Source: Candidatus Daviesbacteria bacterium (lineage in GTDB: Bacteria > Patescibacteriota > Microgenomatia > Daviesbacterales > UBA10151). Taken from it: DNA of 39,542 bases. Where the stretch lies: assembly GCA_021731695.1 (NCBI GenBank), contig JAKFWZ010000102.1:1-39542 (forward strand), written 5' to 3'. This document shows, in pieces, positions 32,896-39,542 of the stretch. The translations under genes and the position numbers were made by a program. How positions within the stretch are numbered: the stretch's first letter is position 1; the number at the start of each line of letters is the position of its first letter. Below the pieces are notes generated by a model. The model was given only the letters and a program-made list of their open reading frames with translations, was not told the DNA's origin and did no database searches.

Positions 32896-35841
32896 ATGCT
32901 TAATTCTCAAAAAGGTTTTGCCCATATATTTGCAGTCTTACTTATTTTAGTTATTACAGTTGGGATATTTCTGGGAAGCCACAATATCAAAAATTACACA
33001 AATTTATCTAGCAAAGCGAGTGAAATGTTTAGTGGCTCCTGTGATCCTGTAGAAACTCCTATTGTTTGTGAAAACTTAAAACCGGGTAATCCCTCAAGTG
33101 AATGGGATATTGGAGATCCAGATGCAGATTTGGGAAAAGCTGGTTTTTCTAATATACAGGGATTTGCAAGTAATTTTTCATCTAATGAAGATAGTGTTAT
33201 TAATTTTAAGGTAAAGACAGATGCAACCTCATACAGACTTGATATCTATAGACTGGGCTATTATGGGGGGATGGGTGCAAGAAAAATTGAAACAGTACGA
33301 CCTTTGGTTAGTCTGCCTCAAATTCAACCTGATTGTTTAACTGAAGGTACTACCGGGTTAGTTGATTGTGGAAATTGGGAAACTTCTATTATATGGCAAC
33401 CACCTTTAGATTTGGTTTCAGGTGTATATATTGCAAAACTTGTTAGGGAAGATAATATAAAAGGTTTTAGTCATATCTACTTTGTTATTAGGGACGATAA
33501 TGGTAATTCAGATATTTTATTTCAAACCTCAGATACAACCTGGCAAGCATACAATAATTATGGTGGAGCAAGTTTATATGAGAATACCAGGTTCACTCTT
33601 CCATATGGGAGAGCCGTAAAGGTAAGTTATAATCGTCCGTTGAATACCCGCTTAGAAACATATCCGTCAGGTATGATGAGTTTTCTTTTTCATAATGAGT
33701 ATCCGATGATAAGATGGCTTGAGTCTAATGGTTACGATGTTAGCTATTTTGCGGGTGTTGATAGTGCAAGTAAAGGGTCTGAAATTTTAAAACACAAAGC
33801 ATTTATTTCAGTGGGACATGATGAATATTGGTCAGGAGAGCAAAGAGCAAATGTTGAAGCTGCCAGAAATAATGGTGTAAATTTAGCCTTTTTTTCTGGA
33901 AATGAGGTTTTTTGGAAAAGCAGATGGGAAAAAAGTATTGATAGCGCAAAATCAGATTTTAAAACATTAGTTGTTTATAAAGAAACTCATTCTGGTAGTA
34001 AGGTAGATCCTTCAGCTTTATGGACAGGTACCTGGAGGGATCCGCGTTTTAGTCCACCTGCAGATGGAGGCAAACCTGAAAATAATTTAACAGGGACTAT
34101 ATTCATGGTAAATGCAGGAAAATCTGAAGATTTAGAAATTACATCAGAGTATTCAAAAATGAGACTTTGGAGAAATACCCCAATTGCTAATTTAGCTTCA
34201 GGACAGAAAGCTGTAATTCCATCTATGATAGGGCATGAATGGGATGCGGATTTAGATAATGGTTTTAGGCCTGTAGGTTTGGTAAATTATTCGCTAACGT
34301 CCTACCAGATAGATAATAGATATCTTGTAGATAATGGTTCACTATATGGAGATGGTGTGGTAAGTCATGCCCTAACACTATATAAACATCCAAGTGGGGC
34401 TTTGGTTTTTGGAACTGGAACTGTGGTATGGCCCTGGGGGTTAGATGGTAATCACGATCAAAATACTGTTGTAAAACCTGATGATAGGATTGGGCAGGTG
34501 ACTGTCAACATTTTTGCAGACATGGGTATTCAGCCAAAAACACTCAAGGTTGGATTAATAGCCTCTGAACAATCCATTGATACTACTTCTCCGGTATCTA
34601 CCATTACAACATCATCACCTATTAGTATTAATGCAAACTCCCCAGTTACAATATCTGGTACTGCTCAAGACACTGTTGGAGTTATAGGAGGGGTGGAGGT
34701 TTCAGTTGATAATGGTTTTACCTGGCATAAGGGTAAAGGAAAAGAACAATGGAGTTATAGTTATATACCTAAAACTGCTGGTACTGTTGATATAAAAGTA
34801 AGAGCTGTTGATGATAGTGGAAATGTGGAAGTTCCAAAACCTGGAGTTGGATTTATTGTAAAGTTTGTTTGTCCATGTAGTATTTTTAACGATTCTCAAA
34901 GTCCTCAGGTTAATGTTGGTGCTGGTGGAAGCCCTTTGGAAGTAGGAATGAAAGTTAGAACTAAAGTTGATGGATATATAACTGGTATAAGATTTTACAA
35001 AGACAGCAAAAATACCGGAACTCATGTTGGCTCGGTCTGGAGTTCTACTGGAAGCTTACTTGGTCAGGCTACTTTTACAAATGAGACTGCATTTGGTTGG
35101 CAGAAAGCTAATCTTGCAGCCGCTGTGCCTATTAAGGCGAATACAACTTATGTTGTTTCTTATTTTTCGCCGAGCGGAGCATACTCAACAACAGATGGAT
35201 TCTTTCTAAGCGATAAAATATCAGGTGGTTTAACTGCTTTAGCAAACAATGTTGATGGTGGAAATGGAGTATATAAATATGGAAGTTCGGGGTTCCCTAT
35301 AAATTCTAATCAAGCTACAAATTACTGGGTTGATGCAGAATTTGTAGAGAAGTGTAATTGCACAACTATCTGGAATAGTACTGATAAACCTGCAAATGTT
35401 AATGTGGATGGTGGAGCATCTCTTGAAGTTGGGGTTAAATTTAGATCAAGTAGCAATGGATTTATCAGAGGGATAAGATTTTATAAAGGAGATAAGAATA
35501 CTGGGACACATACTGCGAGTCTCTGGAATAGTACAGGAACAAAGCTTGGTTCTATAAATTTTGCTAATGAGACTGCTTTAGGTTGGCAGGAGGCAATCTT
35601 TCCTAATCCAATTGCTATAACTGCAAACATAACGTATGTTGCTTCATATCACACAAATAAGTATTTTTCTTCAACTGATGGTTTTTTTGCTAATGCAAAA
35701 ACAAATGGGGTTCTTACTGCTTTAAGCAATAATACAGGGGGTGGAAATGGGGTTTATGCATATGGTAACGGTAGTATTTTTCCCTCAAGTCCTAATCAGG
35801 CTACTAATTACTGGGTAGATGTGCTTTTTTCTAAGAATTAA
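32896..35841 (+). CDS. Large secreted protein: N,N-dimethylformamidase-beta-like domain, Ig-like domain, two DUF4082 domains
   Basis: 981 aa. MLNSQKGFAHIFAVLLILVIT opens an N-terminal anchor with the QKGF start. Residues about 75-555 resemble the N,N-dimethylformamidase large-subunit domain: YRLDIYRLGYYGGMGAR, LFQTSDTTWQAYNNYGG, GVDSASKGSEILKHKAFISVGHDEYWS in part, AFFSGNEVFWKSRWE, MIGHEWDAD. About 565-657 is an Ig-like fold (TSSPISINANSPVTISGTAQDT, in part). Then come two tandem copies of a ~160-aa DUF4082-type module starting at Cys659 and Cys820, each beginning with CxC and containing ITGIRFYKDSKNTGTH or IRGIRFYKGDKNTGTH and TNYWVD near the end. The same combination is known mainly from actinobacterial and cyanobacterial surface proteins. 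Probably extracellular carbohydrate-related adhesion or hydrolysis; true substrate unknown. Confidence 0.75.
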   Translation: MLNSQKGFAHIFAVLLILVITVGIFLGSHNIKNYTNLSSKASEMFSGSCDPVETPIVCENLKPGNPSSEWDIGDPDADLGKAGFSNIQGFASNFSSNEDSVINFKVKTDATSYRLDIYRLGYYGGMGARKIETVRPLVSLPQIQPDCLTEGTTGLVDCGNWETSIIWQPPLDLVSGVYIAKLVREDNIKGFSHIYFVIRDDNGNSDILFQTSDTTWQAYNNYGGASLYENTRFTLPYGRAVKVSYNRPLNTRLETYPSGMMSFLFHNEYPMIRWLESNGYDVSYFAGVDSASKGSEILKHKAFISVGHDEYWSGEQRANVEAARNNGVNLAFFSGNEVFWKSRWEKSIDSAKSDFKTLVVYKETHSGSKVDPSALWTGTWRDPRFSPPADGGKPENNLTGTIFMVNAGKSEDLEITSEYSKMRLWRNTPIANLASGQKAVIPSMIGHEWDADLDNGFRPVGLVNYSLTSYQIDNRYLVDNGSLYGDGVVSHALTLYKHPSGALVFGTGTVVWPWGLDGNHDQNTVVKPDDRIGQVTVNIFADMGIQPKTLKVGLIASEQSIDTTSPVSTITTSSPISINANSPVTISGTAQDTVGVIGGVEVSVDNGFTWHKGKGKEQWSYSYIPKTAGTVDIKVRAVDDSGNVEVPKPGVGFIVKFVCPCSIFNDSQSPQVNVGAGGSPLEVGMKVRTKVDGYITGIRFYKDSKNTGTHVGSVWSSTGSLLGQATFTNETAFGWQKANLAAAVPIKANTTYVVSYFSPSGAYSTTDGFFLSDKISGGLTALANNVDGGNGVYKYGSSGFPINSNQATNYWVDAEFVEKCNCTTIWNSTDKPANVNVDGGASLEVGVKFRSSSNGFIRGIRFYKGDKNTGTHTASLWNSTGTKLGSINFANETALGWQEAIFPNPIAITANITYVASYHTNKYFSSTDGFFANAKTNGVLTALSNNTGGGNGVYAYGNGSIFPSSPNQATNYWVDVLFSKN

Positions 35842-37240: not shown

Positions 37241-37693
37241 ATGAATAAAACAATTATACCCACAGTTATAGTCGCGTTAATCGTTTTTGCGGCAATCGGA
37301 TTTTATGTTTCTCAGCAAAATAATGCAGCTCCTGCAATGCAGGAAACTTCAACCCAATCAACAGCTCCTGCAGCTTCGTCAGCAATGACAGAAGGCACCT
37401 ATAAAGATGGCACATATTCCGTAACAGGAAATTATGTTAGCCCGGGAGGACCAAGAACTCTCGAAGTGTCAGTTACTTTAGAAAATGGAGTTATTACAGA
37501 AACAGAAACAGAAGTAACAGCAACAGATGCAACTAGCAAAAGATTCCAGGAAGAATTTGTAGAAGGTTATAAAGCAACGGTTGTTGGTAAAAACATTGAT
37601 GAAGTAACTTTGACAAAAGTCGCAGGTTCATCTCTTTCACCAAAAGGATTTAACGACGCTCTGACTCGAATTAGAGCAGAGGCAAAATCCTAA
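37241..37693 (+). CDS. Membrane-anchored FMN-binding domain protein
   Basis: 150 aa. An N-terminal helix (about 5-23), a Thr/Ser/Ala/Pro linker (25-50) and an FMN-binding domain (about 51-150: YKDGTYSVTGNYVSPGG, LEVSVTLENGVITETE, GKNIDEVTLTKVAGSSLSPKGFNDAL in part). In this family FMN is attached covalently by ApbE to Thr in a SGAT-type motif; the aligned segment is A128-G-S-S131-L-S, so Ser131 is the candidate attachment residue. Domain lies outside the membrane. It overlaps the ApbE gene by 1 nt (TAATG), leaving no doubt about the pairing. It should carry electrons between the membrane NqrB/RnfD-like protein and an external acceptor. Confidence 0.85.
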   Translation: MNKTIIPTVIVALIVFAAIGFYVSQQNNAAPAMQETSTQSTAPAASSAMTEGTYKDGTYSVTGNYVSPGGPRTLEVSVTLENGVITETETEVTATDATSKRFQEEFVEGYKATVVGKNIDEVTLTKVAGSSLSPKGFNDALTRIRAEAKS

Positions 37694-38574
37694 TGGATAA
37701 CGGGTTCCGGTTTGAATTTGACGCAATCGGAACTCATTGGATGATAGATATTTTGGATTCTGAAGTTAAGGATCAAGCCGGTCTACGAAAAAAAGTCGAA
37801 GAGGAGATTGAAAACTTTTCTAAAATTTTTTCACGGTTTGATCCGGAATCTGAAATTTACTATGCTTCAAAAAATCCGAGTGAAATTACTCTCCCTCAAA
37901 AATATTTAAAACTTCTTAAGGTATATAAAAGATTGTATGACTTAACAGATGGATTATTCACTCCTCTAGTGGGCAATCTATTAATTGACGCAGGTTACGA
38001 TGAAAATTATTCGCTAAAGCCTAAAAAAATAAATCAAGTTTTAGAGTGGGAAGAAGTAATTAATTTAAAAGATAACGTTTTGGAAATTAAAAAAAAATGG
38101 ATGTTAGATTTTGGTGCAGGAGGAAAAGGATTCATTGTCGATATAATTGGTGATCTTTTGAACAATCAGCAAATAAAATCATATTGCATTGATGCTTCGG
38201 GAGACATTTTATATAAAACAGAAAAAGGAGCTGAGATTAAAGTTGGTTTAGAGAATCCTTCGAATACTAAACAGGTTTTAGGAATTGCTAATTTAAAAAA
38301 CGGAAGTATTTGTGCATCATGTGGAAATAGGAGAAAGTGGGATAAATATCATCACATTTTTAACCCTAAATCTTTAAAATCTGTTGATGAAGTTTTAGCT
38401 GTTTGGGCGATTGCAGATGAAGCTCTGATTTCGGATTGTCTCGCGACCTGTTTATTTTTTAAAGACCCGAAAGTATTTCAGGAAGATTTTAGTTTTGAAT
38501 ACTTAATATTGTATCCGGATTTTACGATTAAAAAGTCCGGGAATTTCCCGGGGGAACTATACACGACCGAGTGA
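37693..38574 (+). CDS. apbE: FAD:protein FMN transferase (ApbE family)
   Basis: 293 aa. ApbE transfers FMN from FAD to Thr or Ser of target proteins. Seen: FEFDAIGTHWMIDIL (N-terminal fold), FSRFDPESEIY, LTDGLFTPLVGNLL, the metal-binding DFGAGGKGFIVD, DASGDILYKT, and HHIFNPKS. There is no signal peptide or lipobox, so this copy would act in the cytoplasm or be exported with its substrate in an unusual way; many ApbEs are lipoproteins. It starts with an ATG overlapping the stop of the FMN-binding gene by one base. The downstream redox gene begins 32 nt later. Confidence 0.9.
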   Translation: MDNGFRFEFDAIGTHWMIDILDSEVKDQAGLRKKVEEEIENFSKIFSRFDPESEIYYASKNPSEITLPQKYLKLLKVYKRLYDLTDGLFTPLVGNLLIDAGYDENYSLKPKKINQVLEWEEVINLKDNVLEIKKKWMLDFGAGGKGFIVDIIGDLLNNQQIKSYCIDASGDILYKTEKGAEIKVGLENPSNTKQVLGIANLKNGSICASCGNRRKWDKYHHIFNPKSLKSVDEVLAVWAIADEALISDCLATCLFFKDPKVFQEDFSFEYLILYPDFTIKKSGNFPGELYTTE

Positions 38575-38594
38575 ACTTGCCTCGGGTTTTATAC

Positions 38595-38600
38595 TATAAT
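38595..38600 (+). promoter_or_regulatory. -10 box before the NqrB/RnfD-FNR gene
   Basis: TATAAT (38595-38600); ATG 38607 is 6 nt later. A weak TGAACT (38572-38577) lies 17 nt upstream. The gene may have its own leaderless start besides read-through from apbE. Confidence 0.5.
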
Positions 38601-38606
38601 TAGATA

Positions 38607-39542
38607 ATGTACTTACTCCAAAAAATTGACAACTTATTAAACTCAATCACGATGTATAGACTGGTTCTGTATGTCTTAACTATTCTTGCGATAATCTCAA
38701 TAATTTTTGGATTTATCGAATGGCTGCCTTTTAGCGGAATCCTGTTTATTTATACACTTGTTGTTATTTTAATATCGGTTTTTGTGAGCAATATGTTGTT
38801 TGCAAAAATAATCCGGGCAGATACGAATACGGAATCCGTTTGGATAACCGGATTAATTTTATTTCTGACACTGGCACCGATCAAGGACGGCACCGATTTA
38901 ATTGTAACGGTCGTAATTGCAACTGTTGCAATGGCTTCAAAATATTTCTTAACTTATGATAAAAAACATATTTTTAATCCGGCAGCGATTGGTATGTTTT
39001 TAGCAGGGCTTTTTGGATTTGGTAATTCTATTTGGTGGGTTGGAAGTACAGTCCTGATGCCGTTTGTTTTAGTTATGGGTGTTTTGATCATTCGTAAAAT
39101 CAGAAGGTTTCAGCTTTTTTTCATTTTCGCAATTTTTGCAATTGCTACCTCAAGTTTTTTTAATTACTTCAATGATATAAATCCGATTGAGAATCTTAGA
39201 ATGGTGATCTTTTCTTGGCCGTTGATATTCTTCGGAACAATAATGTTAACTGAGCCGTTTACAACCCCGTTTAATAAAACAAATCGAACAATTTATGGCG
39301 CAATTGTTGGAATATTATTTGGGTCTCAATTCTCTATCGGTCCTTTATACGCATCACCGGAATTTGCTTTAGTAGCCGGAAATATTTTTACATTTATAGT
39401 TAATCCAAAAGGAAAATTGATTTTAAAACTTAAACAAAAAAATCAACTTGCACCAGCAATTTTTGAATTTGTTTTTTCCCCCGATGAGCGAGACTCTTCT
39501 TCGAATAGAAAAATAAATTATATTGCCGGACAATATATGGAA
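38607..39542 (+). CDS. NqrB/RnfD-like membrane protein fused to a ferredoxin-reductase (FNR) domain, 3' end outside window
   Basis: 312 codons to the window edge, no stop. Residues about 15-270 form roughly ten membrane helices of the NqrB/RnfD type, with YFLTYDKKHIFNPAAIGMFL in the conserved HIFNPAA position. A cytoplasmic linker (NPKGKLILKLKQKNQ) is followed by the start of an FAD-binding FR-type domain: APAIFEFVFSPDE and INYIAGQYME, matching the F.F.P..F.aGQYm opening of ferredoxin-NADP+ reductase-like modules. The expected remainder is the FAD/NAD(P)-binding part. Such fusions are known partners of ApbE-flavinylated FMN-binding proteins: the cytoplasmic module takes electrons from NAD(P)H, the membrane part passes them across to the external FMN domain. 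Confidence 0.8.
   Translation, partial: MYLLQKIDNLLNSITMYRLVLYVLTILAIISIIFGFIEWLPFSGILFIYTLVVILISVFVSNMLFAKIIRADTNTESVWITGLILFLTLAPIKDGTDLIVTVVIATVAMASKYFLTYDKKHIFNPAAIGMFLAGLFGFGNSIWWVGSTVLMPFVLVMGVLIIRKIRRFQLFFIFAIFAIATSSFFNYFNDINPIENLRMVIFSWPLIFFGTIMLTEPFTTPFNKTNRTIYGAIVGILFGSQFSIGPLYASPEFALVAGNIFTFIVNPKGKLILKLKQKNQLAPAIFEFVFSPDERDSSSNRKINYIAGQYME

Follow-up and report, generated by a model that had tools for sequence, protein, structure and literature searches.

Gene content and completion of the operon

The window, i.e. the whole 39,542-nt stretch of DNA analysed here, is an entire contig (C9) of a Candidatus Daviesbacteria draft genome (G000; 1.45-Mb, 102 contigs, 97% complete). Three genes lie at its right end, all on the forward strand (Table 1). 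They encode a divergent FMN_bind-like protein (gene 1), an ApbE-type FAD:protein FMN transferase (gene 2), and an NqrB/RnfD-like membrane protein fused to an FNR module (gene 3). The reading frames and spacings of the first-pass annotation were reproduced, with a 1-nt overlap (TAATG) between genes 1 and 2 and a 32-nt gap between genes 2 and 3. In a promoter scan, sites were no more frequent than in shuffled sequences, and a terminator scan gave 2 hits vs 1.0 expected, both on the opposite strand.

Table 1. Positions of the operon genes and of their predicted functional sites in the window
Feature	Position	Strand	Basis
Gene 1, a 150-aa divergent relative of FMN_bind: membrane anchor at the N terminus, linker rich in S/T/P/A, FMN domain at the C terminus	37241..37693	+	ORF, 35-37 homologs, profile match
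Predicted membrane anchor or uncleaved signal of gene 1, residues 5-21	37253..37303	+	hydropathy
A128-G129-S130-S131 codons, predicted FMN attachment site with Ser131 as acceptor	37622..37633	+	conservation, alignment to the Thr of SGAT
Gene 2, ApbE, FAD:protein FMN transferase, 293 aa, without signal peptide	37693..38574	+	PF02424
Gene 3, initial 312 codons, covering the NqrB/RnfD-like membrane domain and the beginning of FNR	38607..39542, onward C11:3-614	+	PF03116, homology
GQY codons, beginning of the FAD-binding part of FNR	39528..39536	+	GQ invariant in 29 relatives

The window stops inside gene 3 at ...AGQYME, where only the first FNR residues are visible. The C-terminal part of a same-genus homolog matches positions 39411-39542 of C9 and 3-611 of a second contig, C11, and both matches meet at one query residue. 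The contig ends share 5-nt (TGGAA), across which the frame continues as ...GQYME/WTLPH.... The joined gene encodes 312 + 202 = 514 aa, the join resting on the frame, the 5-nt overlap and homology rather than on an assembled read across it. The window part matches PF03116 (E 2.6e-7), with no match among PDB sequences by phmmer, and the C11 part, which is 69% identical to the same-genus homolog, matches PF00175 (E 3e-15). The full protein carries the FAD motif RRYFT and the NAD(P) motif GGIGVTP, and the corresponding R-x-[YF]-[ST] and AGG[IV]G-type motifs are kept in 29 full-length relatives. The first-pass annotation had read gene 3 as an NqrB/RnfD-FNR fusion and asked for its completion; the completed protein bears this reading out. 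A truncated FNR without FAD/NAD(P) residues is excluded, its second half being present on C11. In a structure model of a complete homolog (L091; mean pLDDT 90), the Foldseek matches are FNR and NqrF FAD domains. The motif [ST]GA[ST] is absent from the window part of gene 3 and from 28 of the 29 full-length relatives.

A divergent FMN_bind-like family with a serine motif

The gene 1 protein has no match to PF04205 (FMN_bind) over the Pfam cut-off, and a search with this model across the whole source genome gave no match anywhere. Though Pfam misses the window member, the family profile aligns with that of the canonical FMN_bind proteins of relatives (E 6.8e-12), and 17 of 35 family members match PF04205 weakly (best 2.8e-6). 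Judged from these profiles, gene 1 is a divergent FMN_bind relative, in line with its earlier description as an FMN-binding protein. Against PDB, the family profile gave one weak match, to an FMN-binding domain (E 0.034), and the NCBIfam PplA model matches gene 1 partially and weakly (E 4.5e-6), far under its cut-off. The structure model of gene 1 reaches a pLDDT above 90 in the domain. Its best Foldseek match is the FMN domain 8p2a, at a non-significant E of 0.029; 8p2b and RnfG are also among the top matches and IscU-type folds score close behind. This weak structural backing of an FMN fold counts against the interpretation proposed below. A chance ORF was rejected in view of over 35 homologs.

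The predicted attachment site reads A128-G129-S130-S131-L132-S133, with the same numbering as in the first-pass annotation, which had proposed Ser131 as the acceptor. The proposal is supported by an alignment of 37 sequences, including two named relatives from Levyibacteriota and Gottesmanbacteria contigs. Gly129 is present in all 37. The residue at position 131, aligned to the Thr in SGAT, is Ser in 36 sequences and Thr in the remaining one, and position 130 is occupied by either Ser (20 sequences) or Ala (17), giving a family consensus of x-G-[S/A]-S-L-T. Since similarity to the window protein was what brought these sequences into the sample, part of this conservation is selected for. Eight of the aligned sequences have the Asp of the literature motif, and three have the exact D-x-x-[ST]-G-A-[ST]. 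The window reads TKVAGSS, with the Asp missing and Ser in place of Ala, which also counts against the interpretation below. Intermediate forms, DVVSGAS in L110 and DVISGAS in L113, bridge the window sequence to the standard motif. A 315-aa FMN-like protein in another locus (L122, 5999-6946) has two tandem divergent domains, each with its own G-x-[S] site.

A transferase without export signal and its predicted anchored substrate

Gene 2 was confirmed as an ApbE by its match to PF02424 (E 5.8e-41, 141 bits vs a cut-off of 25.6). It is the single ApbE copy in the assembly, and its PDB relatives are TM1553 and FmnB. The catalytic His221 and Asp248 are present in all 39 ApbE relatives, and Ser209 in 37 of them. 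A bacterial-type FAD synthetase was not found in the source genome, a further point against the interpretation below.

Only 18 codons separate the core GT motif of the window ApbE from the preceding stop, too few for a signal peptide, and they include no hydrophobic stretch. Neither the signal peptide nor the lipobox expected of an exported lipoprotein is present. At most 25 residues separate stop and core in 31 of the 39 ApbEs examined. An upstream hydrophobic stretch was seen in one of the 39, whose frame extends back into the FMN gene ahead of it, probably from a wrong start. The earlier remark that ApbE has no export signal is therefore true in the window and common to its relatives.

In gene 1, by contrast, the predicted anchor has a hydropathy of 2.78 over 17 residues, with K3 ahead and no charge behind. 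An N-terminal anchor or hydrophobic segment was found in 36 of 37 FMN proteins, the charge bias is N-in or neutral in 34, and nine of the 37 contain a lipobox pattern; these signal and topology calls are simple hydropathy tests, not SignalP predictions, which we count against our interpretation. Export by the Tat route was rejected, as none of the 37 has a twin-arginine motif. An ApbE without export signal next to a substrate with a Sec-type anchor argues for attachment most likely in the cytosol, on the precursor.

Distribution, linkage and pairing in the phylum

A contig scan with one protein as query returned two loci only. In a sample of 380 genomes of the phylum searched for gene 1 homologs, 41 were positive. 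ApbE is present in all 36 genomes with a clear match (the weakest, above E 1e-4, were left out) vs 83 of the 380 overall. Most window-type FMN genes (35/41) adjoin an ApbE gene, and 34 of these precede it in the same orientation. The third component varies: many loci have a fusion like gene 3, and elsewhere there is a lone NqrB-like or a ferric-reductase-like protein with FNR. The FMN-ApbE pair is thus the constant part.

Two types of ApbE can be distinguished, a short one of about 248 aa and a long one of about 290 aa. The short type lies beside canonical FMN_bind 29 times and never beside the window type, the long type 33 times beside the window type and twice beside the canonical one (Fisher p 3e-16, with genomes treated as independent, though they are related). 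From these counts, ApbE subtype appears to track FMN motif type. The fusion proteins also separate by FMN partner type in their tree, in which the window fusion and its sister from a same-genus genome (G001) fall outside a well-supported clade (100/98) of canonical and most ApbE-less systems.

Seven related genomes have the fusion but neither ApbE nor a clear FMN protein, which counts against the interpretation below. One of them, G022, has a single weak, partial match to the FMN family profile. Another is G001 (79% complete), where the fusion is found at the same place as in the window without genes 1 and 2.

In G001 the fusion gene directly follows secA (L028, 683-5185). In the window, secA and the fusion are separated by genes 1 and 2 and by two others, pointing to either a loss in G001 or an insertion in the window. 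Cupredoxin genes occur near NqrB-like genes in ApbE-less genomes (L032, 9870-10310; L041, 7769-8209; L042, 6141-6578; L045, 6523-6963). In L042 and L045 the cupredoxin gene is the immediate neighbour of a short NqrB-like gene, and FNR is encoded separately close by. The cupredoxin neighbourhoods suggest that a copper carrier stands in for the FMN protein.

Relation to known flavin-based systems

The operon fits the published definition of the NQR/RNF-like system, already reported in the candidate phyla radiation (PMC8238504; PMC11334425), in combining ApbE, an FMN protein and an NqrB/RnfD domain fused to a PF00175 NAD-binding domain. In that system the cluster includes an ApbE or FMN-binding gene, at least one with a signal peptide or lipidation (PMC8238504); here ApbE matches PF02424 and gene 1 has a hydrophobic anchor by hydropathy. 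Gene 3 has the N-terminal PF03116 and C-terminal PF00175 domains (PMC8238504), and its membrane domain is without the Thr that is covalently modified in NqrB/RnfD (PMC11334425). Differences are the divergent serine-motif family of the window FMN protein and the missing signal peptide of its ApbE. The function earlier assigned to the set, moving electrons from NAD(P)H to the outside, matches this published system as far as gene content can tell. A minimal trans-membrane redox route, which the first-pass annotation had put forward, is likewise supported; its novelty is below that implied, since the trio fits a class described in 2021 for the candidate phyla radiation and the route itself is not new. 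One search found no haem-copper oxidase in the source genome, the sole check made on missing respiratory chains.

Gene 3 is related to NqrB/RnfD of Na+-NQR/RNF in its N-terminal domain and to NqrF in its C-terminal one, and gene 1 is distantly related to NqrC/RnfG. Unlike these complexes, the operon has two redox proteins only, with the B and F modules fused, and within it there are no NqrA/RnfC, NqrD/E or RnfA/E subunits. With two redox proteins and without NqrD/E-like genes, the operon is not expected to pump ions or to provide a return path. A surface FMN protein with an ApbE-type transferase is shared with flavin-based extracellular electron transfer in Listeria (PplA, FmnB; PMC9973259). 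However, Listeria exports FmnB and FAD, whereas the window ApbE is leaderless, and the membrane entry there is a type II NADH dehydrogenase instead of an NqrB-FNR fusion. The cytosolic ApbEs of Klebsiella and trypanosomatids also lack a signal peptide, but their substrates are intracellular fumarate reductases (PMC12052999), while the neighbouring substrate here is membrane-anchored.

A proposed conduit flavinylated before export

Taken together, the operon very probably specifies a minimal conduit for electrons across the membrane, belonging to the NQR/RNF-like class. Given the features shared with the published system and a membrane part without the Thr site, the best reading is a path from NAD(P)H through the FAD of FNR and a membrane flavin to a surface FMN. 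We infer that NAD(P)H would donate electrons to the FAD in gene 3's cytosolic FNR domain, and that these would traverse the membrane via the NqrB/RnfD-like domain of the same protein, using a non-covalent flavin. They would then pass to the covalent FMN on the extracytosolic domain of gene 1, which may hand them to some external acceptor. It is quite likely that Ser131 is flavinylated by the neighbouring ApbE, which would join FMN to it by a phosphoester. As to the compartment, we lean slightly towards flavinylation preceding export, with FMN attached to the precursor in the cytosol before or during translocation. Such pre-export flavinylation is a step absent from the published model. The three parts combined make a reading that we regard as probable.

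An FMN-bearing chain passing through Sec is undocumented in the flavinylation literature examined, which counts against this order of events, and in the limited collection searched we found no description of a leaderless ApbE with an exported substrate. Exported ApbEs flavinylate exported substrates outside the membrane and require an external FAD supply (PMC9973259), and known cytosolic ApbEs serve intracellular enzymes (PMC12052999). The same conduit could accordingly be modified after export, as in Listeria/Vibrio, by an ApbE acting outside, which it would reach by a leaderless route or from lysed neighbours. This agrees with what known ApbEs do to exported substrates (PMC9973259, PMC12052999), but we consider it unlikely, as the ApbEs of the window and its relatives have neither signal nor anchor, the window frame is too short for one, and external FAD would be needed too.

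A window-type protein with non-covalent FMN or none, beside an ApbE that serves a different substrate, is quite unlikely. Its degenerate motif and the failure of Pfam FMN_bind to detect it would fit such a role; Ser or Thr at position 131 in 37/37 homologs, the constant linkage to an ApbE of matching subtype, and the absence elsewhere in the genome of a protein of PF04205, the substrate family searched, speak against it. It is very unlikely that gene 3 acts alone or with another carrier (e.g. a thiol protein or cupredoxin), the FMN protein being a dispensable extra: the ApbE-less relatives, with their fusion (as in the incomplete G001 genome) or their short NqrB-like and separate FNR genes, some near cupredoxin genes, allow for it, but in the window, as in most window-type loci, the genes are packed into a single tight unit, and the grouping in the fusion tree matches the type of FMN partner.

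Returning to attachment before export, there is an even chance, in our estimate, that Patescibacteria broadly flavinylate exported redox proteins in this way. Leaderless ApbEs matched to the motif type (long: x-G-[S/A]-S-L-T; short: SGAT) would act inside the cell, on the precursor, followed by Sec passage of the FMN-bearing chain. If so, an FAD exporter would be unneeded. It would also add a further way of loading exported proteins with cofactors, i.e. covalently before Sec, as opposed to sending a folded protein through Tat or exporting the cofactor itself. In our literature search on Patescibacteria or the candidate phyla radiation together with flavinylation, FMN-binding, ApbE or NqrB, a 2021 survey was the sole relevant work found. 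It used the Pfam FMN_bind model, required signal peptides, and called flavinylation strikingly underrepresented in these lineages. The divergent family brought in here has many members that the standard Pfam model misses. The ApbE/motif pairing also offers natural pairs for tests of ApbE specificity.

Genes around the operon

Just upstream of the operon, the window encodes a KilA-N domain protein (PF04383; 36281-37108), possibly of phage or mobile origin. Further upstream is a 981-aa protein (32896-35841) that has a hydrophobic segment at its N terminus and a C-terminal domain of dimethylformamidase-like type (PF20254); it also contains two DUF4082 domains. Elsewhere in the same genome, an FNR-like gene cut by a contig end (L132, contig C38, 3-606) adjoins a gene for a metal-sensing repressor (PF02583). 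On C11, an NAD(P)H-hydrate dehydratase gene lies 1 nt downstream of gene 3 on the same strand, followed by a convergent riboflavin kinase gene; together (L130, 616-1804) they may provide cofactor repair or supply beside the operon. The fusion gene of G001 is also adjoined by a dehydratase-like gene.
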